NCBI GenBank assembly: GCA_019695235.1
Contig: JAIBAI010000013.1
Span: forward strand, 1 to 57,681
Length of the DNA stretch: 57,681 bases
Source: Bacteroidia bacterium
GTDB taxonomy: Bacteria; Bacteroidota; Bacteroidia; M30B66
Direction of reading: 5' to 3'
Shown here: positions 15,031 through 43,240 of the stretch, piece by piece
Layout of the letters: each line of letters starts with the position of its first letter
Position numbering within the stretch: position 1 is the stretch's first letter
Position numbers and translations under genes: made by a program
Notes under the pieces: model-generated
The model's database searches: none
Seen by the model: only the letters and a program-made list of their open reading frames with translations
Told to the model about the DNA's origin: nothing

Positions 15031-15182
15031 GAGAAAAAATGAATTTGCAAGTTTAGCGAAACCTTGGTTAAGATTGCAATTTAACCTTGATATCGCCTGA
15101 AGGGGCTGATTGTTTTGAGGTTGCTGAAAGGGTATCGGGTTAAAATGTTTATTTTCGTTGGCTCATATTGATTGTATTAACG

Positions 15183-18100
15183 ATGTACAAAAACATTGCC
15201 ACGGTAGTTCTGGTTTTTCTTCATACATTTTTATTGGCCGGAGAGCCTTTGGGGCGAGGCTTTATACCCAATCAGGGGCAATGGCCTGCGCATGTTCGCT
15301 ACAAAACGGATGTCCCCTCGGGTCAATTGTACCTGGGCGACAATACGTTCACCTGGAACTTTTACGATGCGGGCGCATTGCACCGGCACCACGGGGGCGC
15401 AGAGAAAGAAACTCCGGCAGAGAGCCTGAAGGGGCATGTAGTACAGATGCGGTTTCTGAACAGCCTGCAACCCAAAGCCCTTGTAAGAGAACTTCCGGGA
15501 ACCACGAAGTTCAGCTATTTCTTAGGAAACGACAAAACCAAATGGGCTTCCGGCCTCTATTCTTATGAGGCAGTGACCTATAAAGAACTATACAAAGGCA
15601 CGGATCTGCGTATCATGCATAACCAGGCAGGGATTAAATATTCATATTACCTTGAAGCAGGTGCTGACCCCGAAGCGATTGCTGTACAATACGAAGGGGC
15701 AGATAAGCTGCGCCTGGAAAACGGGAGATTTATTGCAGAAACCGGAATTATCACCCTGGGAGAAACTGCTCCTATCGCATGGCAAACCGAACATGGAAAG
15801 AGGATTCCGGTAACTTGTTCATTTAAATTAGAGGGCAATGTGCTGAAATTCAATTTGGGTGATTACCGCAATGATTTGCCATTAGTGATTGACCCACAGT
15901 TTATTTTCTCATCTTATTCCGGCTCTACTGCAGATAACTGGGGTTATACGGCAACTTATGATGATTTCGGGAATGGTTATTCGGGGGGGATTGTTTTTGG
16001 AGCAGGTTTCCCAGTAACCACCGGAGCCTATAAAACAACATTTGGCGGAGGCGCTACCGGGCCATTTACGGCTGGGTTTGATATCGGTATCCTCAAGTAC
16101 AAGCCAGATGGGTCTGGTTTATTGTTTGCTACCTACCTTGGTGGAAGTGGCAATGAGTTTCCTCACAGTATCGTGGTGAACGACCAGAATGAATTGCTGG
16201 TGTTCGGCGTTACTTCATCAGCAAATTTTCCTGTGGGTGACGATGCATATAGCAAACTCTTTAAGGGTGGCCCATCAGTGATGGTGCTCGACGGAGAATT
16301 GCCCTGCCCAACAGGTACTGACATGTACATTGCCCGGCTCAGCTTCGATGGTACGCAGCTTCTTGCTGGTACATTCATTGGCGGCACAGGCACTGATGGC
16401 GCCAATCTGGCAAACACACTCGATTATAATTACGGCGATGTTTCACGCGGAGCTATCAATGTAGACCACCAAAACAATATTGTGATTGTTTCAAATACGG
16501 CGTCAAACGACCTGCCGGTTACCTCCAATGCTATTCAATCAACCTATGGAGGTGGCGGTCAGGATGGACTTATCATGAAGTTTGACCAGGGCCTGAGCCA
16601 GTTGCTATGGTCAAGCTACCTTGGCGGCAGTGGTGATGATGGAGTGTACGGCCTTGCATTCAGTCCGCAAAATGATATTGTAATCACCGGCGGCACAACA
16701 TCTACCAACTTCCCTGTTACCACAGGGAGCGTTTCCGGCACCTATGGTGGTGGTCCTGCAGATGCCTTTGTTACTGTAATAAATGCAAATACATTTGCTA
16801 TCCAGGCATCTTCGTACTGGGGCACCTCGTCATACGACCAGGCCTATCTGGTTGACACAGATAAATCGGGTAGTATCTTTCTGTTTGGGCAAACAACTTC
16901 CGGAGGTGATTACTTCATCAAAGATGTTGGCTTCTTTAATACCGGAGGGAATCAGTTTATCAGCAAATTTAATCCGGCGCTTACTGAAGTGGTATGGTCA
17001 ACAGCGTTTGGGAATGCTACAGGCATACCTGATTTGGTGCCTTGTGCCCTTCAGGTGGATGTATGCAACAAGGTATATATTTCAGGCTGGGGAGGTACAA
17101 CAAACTCTGTTCCTGGTACTACTGCAGGTTTGCCAACTACTGCCGATGCTGTAAGGAAAGTCAGTGACGGGTCGGATTTTTATCTGATGGTGATTGATGA
17201 CCAGGCGCAAAACCTGTTATACGGCACTTTTCTGGGGGTTAACGGGGCATTTTATGTGGGCGACCACGTAGATGGTGGCACAAGCCGCTTTGACCCGCGT
17301 GGTGTTATTTACCAATCAGTTTGTGCCGGATGCGGTGGCAACGATAATTTCCCGACTACTCCTACCGCCTGGTCGCGCACCAATAACAGCAGCAACTGTA
17401 ACGAGGCTTTAATGAAATTTGATTTTGAATATCCGATTACCATTGCTGCTTTTGCTTTTGAACCTCCTCCGGTAAGCTGTGACCCTAAAACGGTATTGTT
17501 TACCAACCAAAGTACCAATGCAACCTCCTACAAGTGGTTGGTGAACGGACAAGCTGTAAGCACAGATAAAGATCTCAATCATACCTTCAACAGTCTTGGA
17601 AATTACCTGATTACCCTGGTGGCCATTAACGAAGGCTCATGCAATATTTCAGATACTGTTTCAAGAAATGTTGAAATAAACGCTCCTAAGGCGTTGGCTG
17701 CTGATGCTACCTACGAGAAGTTTGGTACTTGTACGGGTGTTGATGTTTTACTCAGTGGCAGCGGTGCAGAAGGCATCAAATGGCTTTTTCCGGGAGGCAC
17801 GAGTACAGAGGGGGCAAATACCAAAGTTAATGTGCCATACAGCGACACATTGCAGGTGAAATTAATAGTTTATGAGGGCATGTGTTCAGATACCGCCAAT
17901 GTTACAGAAATTCTTAAAGGGCTTGCAGAGTACTACAAACAAAATGATGCGAATGCATTTTCACCAAACGGGGATGGGAAAAATGATTGTTTTAGTCCGG
18001 CGCTGCAACTACAGCCAGTGCCCTACGACAAAGCGTTTTTAGAGTGCTCCGAGCTTTATGTACACAACCGTTGGGGTGAGCTGGTGTTCGATAGCCCGAA

Positions 18101-18230
18101 AGCAAGTGGTGATGGTTGTTGGGATGGGAAAACAACTGCTGGTTCAGCGCTTCCAGAAGGGGTTTATTTTTACCGTTATCTTTTTCAGGGCAAAGAATAT
18201 CCGGGTACGGTGCATTTGAGGTTGAACTGA
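15183..18230 (+). CDS. T9SS cargo: SBBP-type beta-propeller with PKD domain and type B sorting signal
   Basis: A 1015-residue exported protein starting MYKNIATVVLVFLHTFLLAG (signal peptide); an ATG five codons upstream is less likely. The N-terminal domain has GFIPNQGQWP and YFLGNDKTKWASGL, typical of the DUF7948/SBBP group. A propeller follows with repeated YLGGSGDDGVYG-like and ITGGTTSTNFPVTT-like blades (about 250-750). A PKD-like domain (about 765-850) and a gliding-motility-type C-terminal domain end it: NAFSPNGDGKND, HNRWGELVFDS, WDGK, LPEGVYFYRYLF, i.e. T9SS type B (CHU_C). It is a paralogue of the gene at 19051-23292, which has extra repeats. It probably acts at the cell surface; binding partner unknown. 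Confidence 0.9.
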   Translation: MYKNIATVVLVFLHTFLLAGEPLGRGFIPNQGQWPAHVRYKTDVPSGQLYLGDNTFTWNFYDAGALHRHHGGAEKETPAESLKGHVVQMRFLNSLQPKALVRELPGTTKFSYFLGNDKTKWASGLYSYEAVTYKELYKGTDLRIMHNQAGIKYSYYLEAGADPEAIAVQYEGADKLRLENGRFIAETGIITLGETAPIAWQTEHGKRIPVTCSFKLEGNVLKFNLGDYRNDLPLVIDPQFIFSSYSGSTADNWGYTATYDDFGNGYSGGIVFGAGFPVTTGAYKTTFGGGATGPFTAGFDIGILKYKPDGSGLLFATYLGGSGNEFPHSIVVNDQNELLVFGVTSSANFPVGDDAYSKLFKGGPSVMVLDGELPCPTGTDMYIARLSFDGTQLLAGTFIGGTGTDGANLANTLDYNYGDVSRGAINVDHQNNIVIVSNTASNDLPVTSNAIQSTYGGGGQDGLIMKFDQGLSQLLWSSYLGGSGDDGVYGLAFSPQNDIVITGGTTSTNFPVTTGSVSGTYGGGPADAFVTVINANTFAIQASSYWGTSSYDQAYLVDTDKSGSIFLFGQTTSGGDYFIKDVGFFNTGGNQFISKFNPALTEVVWSTAFGNATGIPDLVPCALQVDVCNKVYISGWGGTTNSVPGTTAGLPTTADAVRKVSDGSDFYLMVIDDQAQNLLYGTFLGVNGAFYVGDHVDGGTSRFDPRGVIYQSVCAGCGGNDNFPTTPTAWSRTNNSSNCNEALMKFDFEYPITIAAFAFEPPPVSCDPKTVLFTNQSTNATSYKWLVNGQAVSTDKDLNHTFNSLGNYLITLVAINEGSCNISDTVSRNVEINAPKALAADATYEKFGTCTGVDVLLSGSGAEGIKWLFPGGTSTEGANTKVNVPYSDTLQVKLIVYEGMCSDTANVTEILKGLAEYYKQNDANAFSPNGDGKNDCFSPALQLQPVPYDKAFLECSELYVHNRWGELVFDSPKASGDGCWDGKTTAGSALPEGVYFYRYLFQGKEYPGTVHLRLN

Positions 18231-18932: not shown

Positions 18933-19050
18933 CGCATCTAAACCTTGAATGGATAAAAAGGTTTTGAGACGGCATATAATATTCGCCTTAAAATGCGTGA
19001 TTATTTGTACTTTACGTTCAGTTTTCTCTACATTCGTAATAAGGTTTAAT

Positions 19051-22000
19051 ATGAAAAAATTCTTACTGAGTATTCTTTTGATATTCGGCTTTATTGTCTT
19101 GTATGCCAACGAACCGGGTGGTTCTAATGGTTTTATTCCCAATGGAGGGCAATGGCATCCACAAGTTTTATACCGGATGTCAATCCCCAATGGAGCAATG
19201 TTTCTTGAAAACGGAGGCTTTAGTTATACCTTTTACGATGGCAGTTTATTCGCAGAGCACCATTTAAAGGAGATAAAAGACGTTCCGGAAAAAATTAAAA
19301 CACATACTGTAAGGGTGAAGCTCGAAGGTGCTTTGCAACACGGGAGCCTGAATGCAGAGCAAGGCTCTGTTACCAGGTACAACTATTATCTTGGCAATGA
19401 CCAAACAAAATGGGCTTCCGGGCTTCAGGCATTTCAAACCGTTACCTACCCCGAAGTGTATCCGGGTACTGATTTAAAGTTTTATCTGACTAAGAACCGG
19501 GTGAAGTATGATTTTATACTTGAACCGGGCGCGAATCCGGCATCCATCAGAATGAATTATCAGGGTGCTGAGTCGGTGGTAATCCGTGAAGGAAAATTAT
19601 GGGTAAAGACCAGCCTTGGTGATATTACTGAACAGGCACCGGTTGCATGGCAGACCAACGGTGTTGAAAAAATACCGGTCAGGTGCAATTTTGTTCAAAA
19701 TGAAGATGGCACCATTGGCTTTGAAACTGAAACATTGCATCCAGCTTACAACCTAATAATTGACCCCCAGATTGTTTTTGCAACCTATTCAGGCTCTATT
19801 GATGATAACTGGGGCTTTACAGCCACCAACGACAATGAGGGAAACGGATATGCAGCAGGCGTGGTTTTTGGTGCAAATTTTCAGACGACCACCGGAGCCG
19901 CTCAGGAAAACTTTGGCGGTGGCACGGTAGATATCGGAGTGATTAAGTACAACCCTACGGGTACACAGGCACTTTATATCACCTATCTGGGAGGCAATCG
20001 CTCTGAGTTCCCACATAGCTTGATTGTGAATGAATTCAATGAATTACTGATGTTTGGAAGTACCGGTTCGGCAAATTTTCCAACAACCTCCGGCGCTTAT
20101 TCAAGTACTTTCATGGGAGGCACTTCTACCGGCTTCTCCATCATGACCATGCCCAACGGCTCGGATATTTTCATCAGCCGCTTTGCGGTTAATGGCGATA
20201 TTCTGCTGGCTTCATCGCTTGTTGGAGGAACTAAGAATGACGGGCTGAACGTTGGGAACAACAACGACCTTGTGCGCAATTATGCCGACCAGACACGCGG
20301 GGCACTTTGGGTTGATGCCGACAATAACGTGTACGTGGGTACCAGCACCCTGAGCGACGATTTCCCCGGAACCACCGGGCGCTTCCAGGCAACTTATGGT
20401 GGGGGCGGGCAGGATGGGATTGTACTGAAAATGAACGGTAATCTGAGCAAGTTGCTTTGGGCAAGCTATCTGGGAGGTGAGGCAAGCGATGGTATCTTTT
20501 ACCTGACGGTTGACAATGACATGTCTGTGGTGGTTACCGGAGGTACCCGCTCAAACAATTTCCCGGTAAGTACCAATGCATGGAAGAAGACCTTTGGAGG
20601 TGGAGTTGAACCTGATGGCTTTGTGACAAAACTCGATTCATCCGGTACTCAAATGATTGCCAGCACATACGTTGGCACGGCACAGTATGACCAGTCGTAC
20701 ATTGCCGGGACAGACCATACCGATAATATATACTTGTTCGGACAAACAAGCTCAACAGGTACTGATTTTGTTGTTAATTCACCCATTGCAGTGGCGGGAG
20801 GCAACCAGTTTATCATCAAGTTTAGTCCGATGCTCGACCAGGTGGTATGGAGTACTACCTTCGGGAAAGCCACAGGCAGGCCGGATATTTCACCTACCGC
20901 CCTTTTAGTGGATGTTTGTGATAAAATTTACGTTTGTGGCTGGGGGGGCTATCTCAATGGTCCGTTCGGGGCTTCAATCAGCGGTCTGGTAACCACACCG
21001 GGAGCAATAAAAAACGTTACAGATGGGAATGATTTCTATTTGTATGTTATTAATAGTCAGGCAAGTACGCTTGAGTATGCTTCGTTTTTCGGAGGCAACC
21101 TGAGCCGTGATCACGTAGATGGCGGTACATCGAGGTTTGATAAGAAAGGTATCATTTACCAGGCTATTTGCGCCAGTTGTGGTGGTTACGATGACCTGCC
21201 TGTAACGCCGGGGGCCTACTCACCTACCAATAATTCTTCCAATTGTAATAACGCACTAATCAAGATTGACCTTGAATCACCCATTGTTATTTCTTCGTTT
21301 GTATTATCAAACCCTGATGGGGTGAATCTTTCGGCACCGGTTGGATGTGCGCCTTTCAATGTTAAATTCAAGAACACAAGTATCAATGCTACTTTATTTA
21401 CCTGGAAGATAAATGGAGAGGTTGTTTCAAGTGACAAAGACCTGATACACCTGTTTAACAACAGCGGCACTTATGAGATTACGCTCATTGTTAATTCATC
21501 TGCATCTTGTAATGTGTTTGATACCAGCGCCATGACCCTTACCGTGTTTGCAGCAATTGAAAGTTCGCTGTCTGACCTGAAGGCATGCAAGGGCACACAG
21601 GTTCGTTTAGGCCCGGAAGGTCTCGATGACCCCTATTACACTTTTAACTGGACGCCCACCATAGGCCTTGATAACCCCAAAGGTCGGAGGCCAAAGCTGA
21701 ATGCTTCTGTTGATACCACCTATCGTTTGGTAGTGAGTATGGGTGCCTGTACGGATACTTTATTTCAGAAGATTCATATTGAGGGCAGCCGGATTGATTT
21801 GGCTGCATTGGGTCTATGCCAGGGTGATACCACCAGCATCGGCATTACGGAGCCGGCGCCTGATTCAACCATATTTTCTTGGTCGCCTACCGGAAGTTTG
21901 AGCAATCCGGCAGTATTTAATCCAAAGGCTTTTCCCGGTGTTACAACTACTTACCGGATGTTGATGCAGAAAGAAGGACAAGTTTGTCCGGATACTGTTG

Positions 22001-23292
22001 TTCAACGTATTGACGTAGGTCAGGGGAGTCGTTCAACACTTCCTGTTGCAAAAGCCTGTTTGGGCGACAGTATTCAGATGGGTCCCAATCCGGCGCTTCC
22101 CAATGCGGTTTCAGCTACATGGTCTCCTGCAAGTGGCTTAAGCAATCCGGCAGTTCAAAATCCCAAAGCCATAGCTACTGTAAGCAAGGATTATGTTTTG
22201 GTGCTTGCGAAAACCGGATGCAATGATACCCTTGAGCAGCGGCTGGAAGTAAGCGGTCAGGTGTTGCCTGATTTCACTCTTGTGGAGGCCTGTATGGGTG
22301 ACTCGGCCCAGATTGGTTTTGTGAACCCTCTTGCTGGAACCGGGATAAGCTATACCTGGTTGCCTGCCAGCCAGTACAGCAACAACGCTGCATACAATCC
22401 CATGGTACTTATTGATGGTGATCATACCTACACTTTAGTAGTTGGCTGGCCTTTGCCCGGATGTGAAGACACGCTGGAAGCGCCTGTGAAAGCATTGCTC
22501 GACCCCTTTAATGCGGGTGCTGATGTTACAGCATGCCCCGGACTCCCGGCAAGTATTGGCATACCTGATCAAAGCGGGCAGTACACCTATGCATGGTCGC
22601 CGGCATCATTGGCTGTTACGCCACAGAGTGCTGCCACAATGGTTCAGGTAACTGAAGCCACATGGTTTTACCTGTTAAGAACTCCGGCAGGTACTACCCC
22701 TGGTTGCAAAGGAGTAGACTCTTTGCTGGTGAGTCTTGAAGAGCAGCCAATTGCCGGCTTTGGAATGGCAATTATCCCTGCATGCAATGAGTTGGGAGTG
22801 CAATTGATTGATTCAAGCCAATCGGCAAGTGACATTAGCTGGATGTTAGGAGAGGTGGTGCTGAATGGACAGGATGCACCATTTTTACACGTGCCTTACG
22901 GTGACTCACTGCAAATTACACAAATTGCCATCAATGGGGTTTGTCGCGATAGTTTACTGAAAGCAGAGAAGCTTAAAAACATTGAAGATTATTACAAGCT
23001 ACAGGATGTCAATGCTTTTTCTCCGAATGGTGATGGGAAAAACGATTGTTTTAGTCCGGCCTTGCAACCGCTCTCAAATGGAACAGCCGATACTACTTTT
23101 GTTGAATGTTCTACACTGCTTATCTTCAATCGTTGGGGCGACAAGCTTTTCGACAGTGAACAGGAGCAGGCAGCAGCATGTTGGGACGGGCGCAGCAGTG
23201 GTGGCAATGAAGTACCTGAAGGGGTTTACTATTTCAGTTATTCGTTTAAGGGAGTTGTGCAGACAGGCTACGTACACCTGCGGCGTAACTAA
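19051..23292 (+). CDS. T9SS cargo: large SBBP propeller protein with five Ig-like repeats and type B sorting signal
   Basis: A 1413-residue paralogue of the gene at 15183. The ATG at 19051 starts a clear signal peptide (MKKFLLSILLIFGFIVLYAN); the frame is open 34 codons upstream but those residues are not signal-like. Residues 25-245 are the GFIPNGGQW/LGNDQTKWASGL domain, about 245-745 the propeller, about 755-835 a PKD domain. Then come five repeats of about 70-80 residues (840-1235) with C.G....IG and SWSPTGSLSNPAVFNPKA-like motifs, absent from the shorter paralogue. The end (from about 1320) is the type B sorting domain with VNAFSPNGDGKND, FNRWGDKLFDS, WDGR and VPEGVYYFSYSFK. Likely displayed or released through the T9SS. 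Confidence 0.9.
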   Translation: MKKFLLSILLIFGFIVLYANEPGGSNGFIPNGGQWHPQVLYRMSIPNGAMFLENGGFSYTFYDGSLFAEHHLKEIKDVPEKIKTHTVRVKLEGALQHGSLNAEQGSVTRYNYYLGNDQTKWASGLQAFQTVTYPEVYPGTDLKFYLTKNRVKYDFILEPGANPASIRMNYQGAESVVIREGKLWVKTSLGDITEQAPVAWQTNGVEKIPVRCNFVQNEDGTIGFETETLHPAYNLIIDPQIVFATYSGSIDDNWGFTATNDNEGNGYAAGVVFGANFQTTTGAAQENFGGGTVDIGVIKYNPTGTQALYITYLGGNRSEFPHSLIVNEFNELLMFGSTGSANFPTTSGAYSSTFMGGTSTGFSIMTMPNGSDIFISRFAVNGDILLASSLVGGTKNDGLNVGNNNDLVRNYADQTRGALWVDADNNVYVGTSTLSDDFPGTTGRFQATYGGGGQDGIVLKMNGNLSKLLWASYLGGEASDGIFYLTVDNDMSVVVTGGTRSNNFPVSTNAWKKTFGGGVEPDGFVTKLDSSGTQMIASTYVGTAQYDQSYIAGTDHTDNIYLFGQTSSTGTDFVVNSPIAVAGGNQFIIKFSPMLDQVVWSTTFGKATGRPDISPTALLVDVCDKIYVCGWGGYLNGPFGASISGLVTTPGAIKNVTDGNDFYLYVINSQASTLEYASFFGGNLSRDHVDGGTSRFDKKGIIYQAICASCGGYDDLPVTPGAYSPTNNSSNCNNALIKIDLESPIVISSFVLSNPDGVNLSAPVGCAPFNVKFKNTSINATLFTWKINGEVVSSDKDLIHLFNNSGTYEITLIVNSSASCNVFDTSAMTLTVFAAIESSLSDLKACKGTQVRLGPEGLDDPYYTFNWTPTIGLDNPKGRRPKLNASVDTTYRLVVSMGACTDTLFQKIHIEGSRIDLAALGLCQGDTTSIGITEPAPDSTIFSWSPTGSLSNPAVFNPKAFPGVTTTYRMLMQKEGQVCPDTVVQRIDVGQGSRSTLPVAKACLGDSIQMGPNPALPNAVSATWSPASGLSNPAVQNPKAIATVSKDYVLVLAKTGCNDTLEQRLEVSGQVLPDFTLVEACMGDSAQIGFVNPLAGTGISYTWLPASQYSNNAAYNPMVLIDGDHTYTLVVGWPLPGCEDTLEAPVKALLDPFNAGADVTACPGLPASIGIPDQSGQYTYAWSPASLAVTPQSAATMVQVTEATWFYLLRTPAGTTPGCKGVDSLLVSLEEQPIAGFGMAIIPACNELGVQLIDSSQSASDISWMLGEVVLNGQDAPFLHVPYGDSLQITQIAINGVCRDSLLKAEKLKNIEDYYKLQDVNAFSPNGDGKNDCFSPALQPLSNGTADTTFVECSTLLIFNRWGDKLFDSEQEQAAACWDGRSSGGNEVPEGVYYFSYSFKGVVQTGYVHLRRN

Positions 23293-35884: not shown

Positions 35885-36385
35885 CTATGACTTAGCATCA
35901 TGATTGTTTAGCTCCGAAGGAGCGGCACCAAAATCTTCAAAAATGTATTCGGGTCTGAATTCTATTTGATATGCTTCTAAAAATTCAATGTACTCTTGTC
36001 TGAATGTTTTCTTTTGGTGGTGATCTTCCTGATTAAGAATGTATTTGACCTCCGTTTGAATTTGCGATTGTGCTACAGAAAATGCCCCAAATCCTGCTTG
36101 CCATTCGAATTTACCTGTTACCAATTTGTTTTCATTTATCCATTTCGACGAATTGGCTTTAACATCCCGAATCAAACCGGAAAGATTGCATTCGGGTTTT
36201 AACCCGATGAGTATATGAATATGGTCGGGCATACCGTTGATGATCATCAGTTTTTGGTTTTTGTTGGTGATGATACCGGTGATGTATTGGTACAAGTTCT
36301 CTTTCCATGATTTAGCCATGAGATTGGCTCTGCCTTTTACGGCAAATATTACATGTACGTATAATTGGGTGTAGGTATATGGCAT
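35885..36385 (-). CDS. IS200/RAYT-type Y1 HUH transposase
   Basis: A 166-residue single-strand DNA transposase. The HUH motif is H55-I-H57 in MPDHIHIL; the catalytic tyrosine is probably Y115 in VKYILNQEDHH, with the conserved N..HH after it. The W-rich KFEWQAGFGAFSV motif is also present. Size and the flanking palindromes fit the REP-associated tyrosine transposase (RAYT) branch rather than a mobile IS200/IS605 element with TnpB, which is absent. All catalytic residues are present, so it may be active. The 3' end of the coding region itself carries a GCTCC-GAA-GGAGC palindrome (35911-35923) that encodes AAPSEL. Such enzymes in other genomes nick and shuffle REP hairpins. Confidence 0.88.
   Translation of the reverse strand: MPYTYTQLYVHVIFAVKGRANLMAKSWKENLYQYITGIITNKNQKLMIINGMPDHIHILIGLKPECNLSGLIRDVKANSSKWINENKLVTGKFEWQAGFGAFSVAQSQIQTEVKYILNQEDHHQKKTFRQEYIEFLEAYQIEFRPEYIFEDFGAAPSELNNHDAKS
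35911..35923. repeat. Palindrome inside the transposase 3' end
   Basis: GCTCC (35911-35915), GAA, GGAGC (35919-35923). Same 5-bp-stem, 3-nt-loop design as the external repeats but another sequence. Confidence 0.6.
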
Positions 36386-40026: not shown

Positions 40027-40905
40027 TTAGATATGCTTTTCAGCATGGTACGAGGAGCGCACCAATGGACCACTTTCTACGTAGCGGATACCTTTTTTCA
40101 AACCATATTCCTTGTACTGGGCAAAGCGTTCGGGGGTAACAAACTCAGCTACCGGAAGATGCTTAGGGGTAGGTTGGAGATACTGTCCGATTGTTAGAAT
40201 CTCGATACCTGCTTTGTGTAAATCGTCAATAGTTTCGAGAATTTCTTCGTGTGTTTCACCAAGGCCCAGCATGATGCCTGATTTTGTTACACAACCTCCG
40301 GCTTTTAGACGTTGCAAGACTTCAAGGCTACGGTCGTATCGCGCCTGGATTCGTACTTCGCGGGTCAGTCGCCGAACAGTTTCGAGGTTATGGGAAACAA
40401 TTTCCGGCATAATATCAATAATTCTTTGAAGGTTTTCCCATTTTCCGGCAAAATCAGGAATCAGTGTTTCAAGCGTTGTTTCAGGGCTTGTTTCGCGCAC
40501 TGCTTTAACTGTTTCGGCCCATAATATTGAGCCGCCGTCTTTCAGGTCATCGCGGTCAACCGAGGTTATTACGCAATGTTTTACGCTCATGAGTTTCACC
40601 GAATTGGCTACCCTGCCTGGTTCCTGCCAGTCTACTCCACTGGGCATACCTGTTGCAACGGCACAGAAACCGCATGAGCGGGTGCAGATATTACCCAGAA
40701 TCATAAATGTAGCGGTTCCGGCACCCCAGCATTCGCCCATATTAGGGCAGTTGCCACTCTCGCAAATGGTATGCAGCTGGTGTTCATCAACGATTTTGCG
40801 AAGCTGAAGATATTCCGGCCCTGTAGGGAGTTTCACCCTCAGCCATGAAGGTTTGTGCGTTCTTGTTTGTGCTGTTTTGCTATCGTCTGTCAGGGGTGAT
40901 TCCAT
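40027..40905 (-). CDS. lipA: Lipoyl synthase LipA
   Basis: A 292-residue radical-SAM enzyme that inserts two sulfurs into octanoyl groups on lipoate-dependent proteins. Both iron-sulfur clusters are visible: the auxiliary cluster [12 protein letters not shown] (CX4CX5C) and the radical-SAM CTRSCGFC (CX3CX2C). The C-terminal RSSYHAEKH supplies the conserved Ser ligand. [11 protein letters not shown] and GLGETHEEI are further family motifs. Full length. The ATG lies 16 nt inside the end of the upstream outer-membrane-like gene and the EamA gene starts 2 nt after its stop, so the three are probably one transcript. Confidence 0.97.
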
Positions 40906-41648
40906 TGTTTGCCAAAAATAAACCGGATGAAGAAATTGAAAAAAAGGTACTGCCCCGGCTGATTGTCAGCCATGATGCTGATTTTTGCCGGGTATGCATT
41001 TAAAGAGATGCCTGTTTCGAGCATTTTGATTTTTTCTTCCTGGCTTCCGAAAGAGCAGTTGATTTGCCAGGTGCCATAGAGGCCGGGGTAAAAGCGACTT
41101 TGCTGAAAACCTTTAAAAAAGGGAGCCCGGCTGGAGATATTATCGGGGAAATGTTTTTCCGGATTGTAGCGTTCAAGTTTTTCCTGTATTCCTTCCATGT
41201 CAGACTGATGAAAGATATAGAGGTATACTGGCTTGGCCATAGCCAGTGAAAAACCTCCAAACCAGGAGTAGCCGATTGCTATGCTTTTTGTGTCGTTTTT
41301 AGGGTAGATGGTTTTCTGTATTCCTGCACCCAGTTGAATTGCGTTGAGGCTGATGAGTTTGCCATAAAGAAAGCCATTGCTGTTCTTGCTAAATGCATTC
41401 ACTGATTTTACTTCTTTAGGGTGCTTTAGATTTTGAAGGGAGCAATCGTAGAGAAAAGTTTTGGTATAGTGGAGTTTTTTCCCTTTCCGGAAGTGAAGGC
41501 CCAGGCCACGGCTGTTAAGGCTTACACCGCCCTGCACCACATTTCGGTAAATGATTTTACTTTCATCCACACCCTTTACCAGCTGCGCATTCAACCGGGG
41601 TGACCACAGCATGAAAAGTGCACTAAAGATAAAAAGCAAGCGACCCAT
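40890..41648 (-). CDS. Exported, probably outer-membrane, protein of unknown function
   Basis: 252 residues from the ATG at 41648, which begins a signal peptide ([20 protein letters not shown], cleavage after NAQ); the frame is open 34 codons upstream but a -7 promoter box lies there. The mature part has alternating aromatic/polar strands ([37 protein letters not shown]) and ends with a barrel-like [13 protein letters not shown] stretch, suggesting a small beta barrel. I do not recognise a named family, though similar hypothetical proteins occur widely in Bacteroidota. It overlaps lipA by 16 nt and shares a 48-bp divergent promoter region with osmC. Confidence 0.72.
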
Positions 41649-41659
41649 GGTAGAGAGGG

Positions 41660-41667
41660 CAAAGATA
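41660..41667 (-). promoter_or_regulatory. -7 element TATCTTTG of the OMP-lipA-eamA run
   Basis: Exact match on the minus strand, 11 nt before the ATG at 41648. A TTTA lies near the -33 position. Confidence 0.55.
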
Positions 41668-41684
41668 CAACAGAATAAAGGTAT

Positions 41685-41692
41685 TATCTTTG
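41685..41692 (+). promoter_or_regulatory. -7 element TATCTTTG of osmC
   Basis: Exact match only 4 nt before the osmC ATG, identical in sequence to the divergent box 17 bp away. Implies a leaderless or nearly leaderless osmC mRNA. Confidence 0.55.
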
Positions 41693-41696
41693 TGCA

Positions 41697-42104
41697 ATGG
41701 CAACACTTCATACCCGCTACCTTGGCGAATTGCGCACCGAAGTTACCCATCTGGCCAGTGGGGCGTCGTTTATTACCGATGCACCGCTTGACAATCAGGG
41801 GAAAGGTGAATCAATTTCGCCCACAGATACACTCTGCGCAGCATTTACCTCCTGCATGTTTACCCTGATGGGCATTGCAGCCCGTACACATGGGATAGAC
41901 ATTGACGGCATCAGGGCAGATACCACCAAACACATGGGAACAGAACCCAGGCGGGTTGTTCGAATAGAAGTTCGGATTTTTGGATTCCCGAAGGTTTATA
42001 CTGAAAAGGAGAAAATCATTCTGGAGCGTGCAGCCAGAACCTGTCCGGTGGCAATGAGTGTCCATCCGGATATAAAGCTTGAAGTAAGCTTTGAGTTTGA
42101 TTAA
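41697..42104 (+). CDS. OsmC/Ohr family protein
   Basis: A 135-residue thiol-dependent peroxidase-like protein. The two reactive cysteines of the family are both visible: one in the central helix (SPTDTLCAAFTSCMFTLMGI) and one near the end (AARTCPVAMSVHPDIK). The N-terminal strands YLGELRTEVTHLASG and ITDAPLDNQGKGESISP fit the YhfA-like OsmC branch. These proteins reduce organic hydroperoxides. Length is normal. It is divergent from the lipA run across 48 bp. Its stop overlaps the convergent stop of a tiny lipoprotein gene by 4 nt. Confidence 0.92.
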   Translation: MATLHTRYLGELRTEVTHLASGASFITDAPLDNQGKGESISPTDTLCAAFTSCMFTLMGIAARTHGIDIDGIRADTTKHMGTEPRRVVRIEVRIFGFPKVYTEKEKIILERAARTCPVAMSVHPDIKLEVSFEFD

Positions 42105-42232
42105 GCCGGACGCTCAGAAGAAGCAACCGGATGTTTGCCGTATGCGGGGCAGTCAACTTTCTTGGCTCTACAAGAGCTGAAGCTAAGAACGAAAAGTACT
42201 AAGCAGGCTGAAACAACAAGAAACTTCCTCAT
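42101..42232 (-). CDS. Tiny lipoprotein 1 with KVDCPAY motif
   Basis: 43 residues: MRKFLVVSACLVLFVLSFSS, lipobox Cys at 21, then RAKKVDCPAYGKHPVASSER and PA. The basic start, hydrophobic stretch and SSC make a lipoprotein signal (the -3 residue is Phe, not the usual Leu). The mature peptide is only about 23 residues with one further Cys. It aligns without gaps to the neighbour at 42267-42407 from Cys21 through KVDCPAYxKH. A TAATTTTG -7 box lies 19 nt before the ATG. The stop is shared with the convergent osmC end. It would sit in the outer or inner membrane. Function unknown. Confidence 0.75.
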   Translation of the reverse strand: MRKFLVVSACLVLFVLSFSSCRAKKVDCPAYGKHPVASSERPA

Positions 42233-42251
42233 CTGGTTCTGAAAATTCCTG

Positions 42252-42259
42252 CAAAATTA
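42252..42259 (-). promoter_or_regulatory. -7 element TAATTTTG of tiny lipoprotein 1
   Basis: Exact TAnnTTTG match on the minus strand, 19 nt before the ATG at 42232 and just past the stop of the second lipoprotein gene. Confidence 0.45.
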
Positions 42260-42266
42260 ACATATT

Positions 42267-42407
42267 TTAAGACTTGAATAACGTATTTGATTTTTTTGTT
42301 GCAGAATGCTTGCTATAGGCCGGGCAATCTACTTTTGAGCTCATGCAGGAGCTCAGGATACAGGTAAAAAAGAGGAGCAACATGGAAGCTGTCAGGTACC
42401 TTTTCAT
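42267..42407 (-). CDS. Tiny lipoprotein 2 with KVDCPAY motif
   Basis: 46 residues: MKRYLTASMLLLFFTCILSS, lipobox Cys at 21 (LSSC), then MSSKVDCPAYSKHSATKKSN and TLFKS. A clear signal-peptidase II site with Leu at -3. KVDCPAY occupies residues 25-31, exactly as in the neighbouring gene, so the two are tandem paralogues 34 nt apart. The tail differs: basic here, acidic/proline-containing in the other. No exact TAnnTTTG box is seen in front of it. Conservation of motif spacing across two copies argues strongly that both are genes despite their size. Confidence 0.75.
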   Translation of the reverse strand: MKRYLTASMLLLFFTCILSSCMSSKVDCPAYSKHSATKKSNTLFKS

Positions 42408-42556: not shown

Positions 42557-43240
42557 ATGGCTTCAGAAACCCTTGTTCCCCGTATAAATGAAGGTTGGAA
42601 GCAAGCTTTGAAGGTTGAATTTGCAGCGCCTTATTTTCATACGCTAAAAGCCTTTTTGCTTCAGGAAAAGGCGACCCATACAGTATTTCCGCCCGGTAAT
42701 CAGATTTTCGCGGCCCTTGATTTATGTCCGCCTGAAAAGGTAAAAGTGGTAATTGTAGGTCAGGACCCCTATCATGGTCCGGGTCAGGCGAATGGTCTGT
42801 GTTTTTCGGTTGCAGCGGGTGTTCGGTTGCCCCCTTCGCTACAGAACATTTTTAAAGAGATAAAGACTGACCTTGGCTGTGACAACGGCAAGCAGGGAGA
42901 TTTAAGCTCATGGGCACGTCAGGGGGTACTTTTGCTCAATACCTCACTCACGGTAAGGGCTGCGTCGCCCGCTTCACACAGCAATAAGGGTTGGGAACAG
43001 TTTACTGATGCGGTGATACGTTATTTGTCGGCCCAAAAACAAGGGCTTGTTTTTTTGCTTTGGGGTGGTCATGCACGGCAAAAAGAGAAGCTGATTGACA
43101 GCAGCCGGCATTTTGTATTACAGGCAGCGCATCCTTCACCACTTTCGGCTTACAATGGCTTTTTTGGCTGCCGTCATTTCAGCCAGGCCAATAAGATTTT
43201 ACTTGATCAGGGGCGCGAGCCAATTCAGTGGTGTCTTTGA
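42557..43240 (+). CDS. ung: Uracil-DNA glycosylase (family 1)
   Basis: Removes uracil from DNA in base-excision repair. The 227-residue protein carries the water-activating loop GQDPYHG with catalytic D70, the uracil-pocket LCFSV and LLLNTSLTV motifs, LLWGGHARQK, and the DNA-intercalating loop HPSPLSAYNGFFG with its essential His. Length is typical. The ATG at 42557 is chosen because the eight upstream codons run into the promoter box. Its TGA shares one base with the ATG of the next gene (TGATG), coupling it to the outer-membrane barrel protein, an unusual pairing of repair and envelope functions. Confidence 0.97.
   Translation: MASETLVPRINEGWKQALKVEFAAPYFHTLKAFLLQEKATHTVFPPGNQIFAALDLCPPEKVKVVIVGQDPYHGPGQANGLCFSVAAGVRLPPSLQNIFKEIKTDLGCDNGKQGDLSSWARQGVLLLNTSLTVRAASPASHSNKGWEQFTDAVIRYLSAQKQGLVFLLWGGHARQKEKLIDSSRHFVLQAAHPSPLSAYNGFFGCRHFSQANKILLDQGREPIQWCL

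Follow-up and report, generated by a model that had tools for sequence, protein, structure and literature searches.

A tandem gene pair for very small predicted lipoproteins belongs to a Cys-Pro-Ala-Tyr family found across the Bacteroidia

The window analysed here is a stretch of 57,681 nucleotides from a Bacteroidia bacterium (contig JAIBAI010000013.1), in which two tiny genes are arranged in tandem on the minus strand between an OsmC-like gene and a uracil-DNA glycosylase (UDG) gene. The first transcribed of the pair is designated the upper copy and the second the lower copy. The following features were identified:

41697 to 42104, plus strand: gene for an OsmC-like protein, a conserved neighbor (PF02566; e-value: 6.8e-12; synteny)
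42101 to 42104, shared by both strands: TTAA within the stop codons of the lower copy (minus) and the convergent OsmC-like gene (plus), from the sequence
42101 to 42232, minus strand: lower copy, encoding a 43-amino-acid predicted lipoprotein precursor, MRKFLVVSACLVLFVLSFSSCRAKKVDCPAYGKHPVASSERPA, with a predicted mature part from Cys21 (family profile e-value: 9.0e-18)
42140 to 42160, minus strand: KVDCPAY motif of the lower copy, differing from that of the upper copy at silent positions only, by codon comparison
42267 to 42407, minus strand: upper copy, encoding a 46-amino-acid predicted lipoprotein precursor, MKRYLTASMLLLFFTCILSSCMSSKVDCPAYSKHSATKKSNTLFKS (family profile e-value: 1.3e-15)
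42315 to 42335, minus strand: KVDCPAY motif of the upper copy, by codon comparison
42557 to 43240, plus strand: UDG gene, a divergent conserved neighbor (NCBIfam uracil-DNA glycosylase models; e-value: 1e-97; synteny), its start set at an internal ATG

Both small reading frames begin with ATG, and their coordinates and lengths (43 and 46 codons) agree with the first-pass annotation, which had interpreted them as tandem paralogous lipoproteins under selection. Each translated product has a basic N-terminus, then a hydrophobic stretch and an S-S-C lipobox with its cysteine at residue 21, after which the two align without gaps through KVDCPAY (residues 25-31) and KH (33-34) before the tails diverge, as had been described. 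A similarity beyond chance was likewise borne out when the 2.83-Mb genome was searched in six frames with the lower copy as query, the upper copy being retrieved with an e-value of 1.3e-7 and the next match with 0.32. Seventeen residues are identical between the copies and 12 of these are encoded by different codons, a pattern of coding selection; within KVDCPAY itself five of the seven codons differ, every change being silent. These silent differences, together with the lipobox-bearing relatives described below, uphold the interpretation of the pair as selected paralogs, and we consider it almost certain that both genes are real, under selection and encode lipoproteins of one family.

A deficit of non-synonymous change, proposed earlier as a check on coding capacity, was found in two sets of comparisons. 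Across 38 similar pairs the pooled pN/pS is 0.16, or 0.24 with the motif codons left out; since these pairs were chosen for high identity the ratio is biased low, and it is taken as supportive rather than as a measurement. In pairs chosen by kinship only, drawn from two genome pairs of the taxonomic family to which the window's genome belongs, pN is also below pS (0.23 vs 0.68, 0.17 vs 0.41, 0.02 vs 0.33 and 0.04 vs 0.30).

Many homologs carrying both the motif and a lipobox were recovered, the opposite of the outcome that the first-pass annotation had named as refuting its reading. Relatives occur in 125 of 182 genomes across the Bacteroidia (E≤1e-4), a few of these matches covering the signal peptide only. 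Among 100 related genomes, the lower copy alone finds matches in 51 (E≤0.1), and a profile built from 34 members finds a convincing match in approximately 73. No convincing relative was found in other classes of Bacteroidota, where the matches listed are weak and for the most part cover the signal peptide alone; the phylum-wide search with the whole-family profile was swamped by lipoprotein signal peptides, and weak matches ending before the CPAY columns were excluded. As no stretch was conserved enough for back-translation from the alignment, a degenerate DNA pattern for C-[K/R]-x-H-E-x-C-P-A-Y-G was used in its place, and across a collection of 84,980 species it occurs in 98 stretches. Where titles were shown, these derive from Bacteroidota, except for two contigs of one metagenome-assembled genome labelled Paceibacterota. 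These Candidatus Paceibacterota contigs (L184 and L226) carry the Bacteroidia motif, within an open reading frame in L184, and are probably wrongly binned.

The family is class-wide and usually single-copy, with the consensus MKK...SSC[KR]xHExCPAYG[K]. Its members total about 35-66 amino acids, with a median mature part of about 22. CK[ST]HExCPAYGK is the commonest form and C-x(mostly 4-6)-C-P-A-Y-[GS] the wider one. KVDCPAY, the motif described in the first-pass annotation, is a spelling confined to the window's own family. Both window copies fall within the family when it is defined by a second cysteine soon after Cys+1, followed by P-A-Y or a close variant, in a protein of about 35-66 amino acids. 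Neither is matched by any Pfam or NCBIfam model (best e-value: 0.14, far under the curated cut-off), in agreement with the earlier statement that no function is known for the motif. A literature search for CPAY and lipoprotein returned nothing relevant, and no paper describing or testing any member was found in a corpus covering few of the subscription journals. The family appears to be undescribed; its proteins are very small, predicted to be lipid-anchored and marked by a single conserved cysteine. Should this prediction hold, a bacterial lipoprotein family that is among the shortest to be broadly conserved has been missed because its genes lie below gene-calling limits.

Every one of the ten genomes in the window's family has a lower copy of the form C[RK]A[KR]KVDCPAYG, and nine of the ten have an upper form with DCPAY[SG] (counterparts in 8/9 relatives). 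The gene tree of such tiny proteins is weak, with few forks resolved, and the copies are mostly not grouped by genome, which is consistent with a duplication early in this family after which both copies were kept. Other families have tandem pairs as well, in which some upper copies end in CPAYxIELIVK-like tails. Such a hydrophobic-tail sub-family, CPAY[ASK]IE(L/W/F)IVK or similar, usually occupies the upper position of a pair or stands alone before ytxJ, with members at L083:9372-9494 and L078:9552-9662 and in L117, L132, L190, L204 and L206.

Comparison of 41 regions and 96 named contigs revealed a conserved gene order in most lineages. Genes for an Omp85 protein and UDG are transcribed away from the CPAY gene, which is followed on its own strand by ytxJ/brxC where this is present, then by a convergent OsmC-like gene, and by a gene of unknown function and lipA, both oriented as the CPAY gene. 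UDG was seen in 75 of the 96 contigs, which are short. Other locations are seen in some lineages: the CPAY gene may follow a ribH-like gene and itself precede ytxJ, or follow an arginine decarboxylase-like gene with no ytxJ, both gene names being assigned by eye. In the window, a 286-amino-acid protein with a likely signal peptide (40890-41750, minus strand) matches no Pfam or NCBIfam model; many Bacteroidia genomes retain its gene between the OsmC-like gene and lipA. Further from the pair, the list of open reading frames contains two adjoining, very large secreted proteins (15168-18230 and 18949-23292, plus strand) that look paralogous, resembling each other at their starts and in their gliding-type C-terminal ends, and an open reading frame that by eye resembles an IS200/REP-type (Y1) transposase (35885-36385, minus strand).

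The sequence TAnnTTTG is the -7 promoter element of Bacteroidota. It occurs in 100 of 132 CPAY upstream regions, compared to 17.5 in composition shuffles, the regions being related sequences and the count thus one of non-independent cases. The matches peak about 40-50 bases before the CPAY start, and since UDG is divergent some of the sites may serve that gene. A scan of the region with a sigma-70 model, which is unsuited to Bacteroidota, showed no promoter. A further element, TGTTAAT, was observed in 38 of the 132 regions against about six in shuffles (e.g. L186, L172, L217 and L248) and could instead be an element of the divergent UDG gene.

The gene that follows CPAY in many genomes, ytxJ/brxC, encodes a monothiol bacilliredoxin (TIGR04019, PF11009). 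Neither this gene, which in relatives usually comes next, nor the conserved site is mentioned in the first-pass annotation. In Bacillus, BrxC acts with BrxB and Bdr in reducing mixed disulphides of bacillithiol (BSH), the occurrence of which is also known in Bacteroidetes (PMC10950700; PMC6282198). A CPAY gene is located just upstream of ytxJ, on the same strand and within about 240 bp, in 42 of 121 ytxJ-bearing genomes across the class, a count made by eye from profile-match coordinates for which about 0.005 would be expected by chance. The two are same-strand neighbors in 27 of the 96 named contigs, and a short two-cysteine lipoprotein gene directly precedes ytxJ in 29 of 57 ytxJ-bearing near relatives. 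Salibacter halophilus KCTC 52047 (L211) is an isolate with a CPAY gene immediately ahead of ytxJ. Nearly all adjacent CPAY-ytxJ pairs occupy the same ancestral site, so that the adjacency reflects mostly one inherited arrangement and not many events. Across the near relatives the presence of CPAY and that of ytxJ are not correlated (p=0.36); 29 of them, including the window's genome, have CPAY without ytxJ, and ytxJ often sits elsewhere without CPAY. CPAY was furthermore found in one of eight genomes lacking bshC and in 124 of 174 with bshC (p=0.001), raw counts that represent few independent lineages, five of the eight bshC-less genomes coming from one family.

In the family of the window, ytxJ directly follows the lower copy in all nine other genomes. 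In the window's genome two models detected no ytxJ anywhere, and the lower copy ends on the OsmC-like gene itself; the genome does keep bshC, as well as a member of the BrxA/BrxB family (PF06491). The TTAA overlap at 42101-42104 sits where the relatives carry ytxJ/brxC. As the pair is retained without ytxJ, CPAY has no strict need of this gene. No signal peptide was seen in YtxJ, which should therefore be cytosolic, and since the lipoprotein is predicted to be exported the two need not meet.

The anatomy of a lipoprotein, comprising a basic N-terminal end, a hydrophobic core and a lipobox of the form [LVIFA]-x-[SAG]-C, is found throughout the CPAY proteins. All 145 sequences have S, A or G at residue -1, most have L, F, Y, I, V or A at -3, and 125 have K or R at +2. 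Exactly two cysteines, including the one predicted to be lipidated (Cys+1; Cys21 in the window copies), occur in 142 of the 145, separated by a variable spacing of mostly 4 to 6 residues. With Cys21 predicted to be lipidated and the spacing variable, disulphide or metal pairing of the two cysteines is unlikely within one molecule, although an intermolecular disulphide, as in the dimers suggested earlier, or a bound ligand is possible. Each molecule would thus present one free thiol. Surface lipoproteins of Bacteroidota bear an acidic export signal right after Cys+1. No such signal is seen in the window copies, which read CRAKK and CMSSK at this position; the basic +2 residue usual in the family and the lack of acidic residues make the periplasmic face the default location under established sorting rules, probably at the outer membrane.

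The conservation of CPAY in these sets is partly by construction, as both the search profile and the pattern contain it. The ytxJ loci were collected without CPAY as a criterion, the upstream lipoproteins being chosen by eye from short upstream reading frames, and here the second cysteine is kept while PAY varies (CAAY, CDAY, CPAF, CPSY, CPTV, CQAK and CRGV). This suggests that the second cysteine is conserved independently of the motif.

Our best guess, to which we assign a probability of about one in three, is that the CPAY protein is a lipopeptide of the outer membrane that faces the periplasm and acts in envelope thiol redox through its lipid-proximal thiol. The precursor, with a signal peptide of about 20 residues and a mature part of about 22, would be secreted, lipidated at the lipobox cysteine and by default remain oriented towards the periplasm, probably in the outer membrane. 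Its only conserved part would adjoin the lipid, with the basic +2 residue followed by one free cysteine in C-P-A-Y-[GS], and would place a thiol near the membrane in a basic and therefore reactive setting. This thiol would form mixed disulphides with an envelope partner, or bind a partner, and so contribute to thiol and oxidative homeostasis in bacillithiol-making Bacteroidia. Such a role would explain why CPAY often heads a unit with ytxJ/brxC, with which it may share a transcript. The more specific proposal that this lipid-anchored single-thiol peptide is a periplasmic thiol cofactor or sensor linking the envelope to the bacillithiol system is decidedly unlikely; if true, it would represent a class-wide membrane-tethered thiol of a kind undescribed before. 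If the prediction holds, the family would offer a directly testable way into periplasmic thiol chemistry, a subject that is poorly known in this phylum.

The main rival, next after the envelope-thiol reading and itself possible but doubtful, is a docking or mimicry peptide like LptM of E. coli, whose acyl chains and lipid-proximal motif would plug into a barrel or translocon, LptD or an Omp85 protein, the cysteine mattering for shape or for disulphide maturation of the partner. LptM is a ~6-kDa outer-membrane lipoprotein with a conserved short N-terminal region that promotes the oxidative folding of LptD (PMC10567701). The shared anatomy and the Omp85 gene behind UDG at the CPAY site of many genomes are in keeping with this, but the Omp85 gene is transcribed divergently and is not close to CPAY in every genome, the CPAY proteins match neither PF13627 nor any other Pfam model, and LptM-type genes have been reported in Gamma- and Alphaproteobacteria (PMC10567701). 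A general envelope-stabilizing role without specific thiol chemistry, as for HP0135, a protein of similar size and anatomy whose deletion yields outer-membrane vesicles and mini-cells (PMC11768039), is unlikely, as it leaves the conservation of Cys-Pro-Ala-Tyr unexplained.

It is very unlikely that the peptide binds heme or a metal through a Cys-Pro motif, with the free cysteine, a nearby histidine and the tyrosine as ligands. Cys-Pro preceded by R or K, as is often the case here, resembles heme regulatory motifs, and the second cysteine often has a histidine a few residues ahead of it (KTHERC), but neither window copy has this histidine, the spacing of the cysteines varies and 22 residues offer few ligands. 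A leader or translation-arrest peptide controlling ytxJ is highly improbable, even though many genomes have a small secreted reading frame just a few bp ahead of ytxJ. CPAY is kept without a same-strand follower in the window and in many families (UDG/CPAY/OsmC), and conservation lies at the lipobox and CPAY and not at the C-terminal end; with the regulated gene not always directly downstream, this candidate is largely refuted. Chance reading frames or a non-coding repeat, for which only the short length speaks, are refuted by the family-wide conservation, the silent codon differences and the synteny.

Among known systems, the entericidins EcnA and EcnB are a tandem pair of lipoproteins of 40-48 amino acids and in this resemble the window copies, but no Pfam match links them to CPAY, most CPAY genes are single-copy and we know of no CPAY-like motif in either. 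LptM (YifL) of Enterobacteriaceae (PF13627) is likewise a tiny lipoprotein with a short lipid-adjacent motif and a variable tail, but its mature part is about twice the length, lacks CPAY and shows no profile match. HP0135 of Helicobacter pylori, compared by its description, is an outer-membrane-associated lipoprotein of 28 amino acids when mature. YtxJ/BrxC is often encoded by the next gene on the same strand, within the same bacterial class, but at about 110 amino acids it is a different protein altogether, a neighbor of CPAY and no relative.
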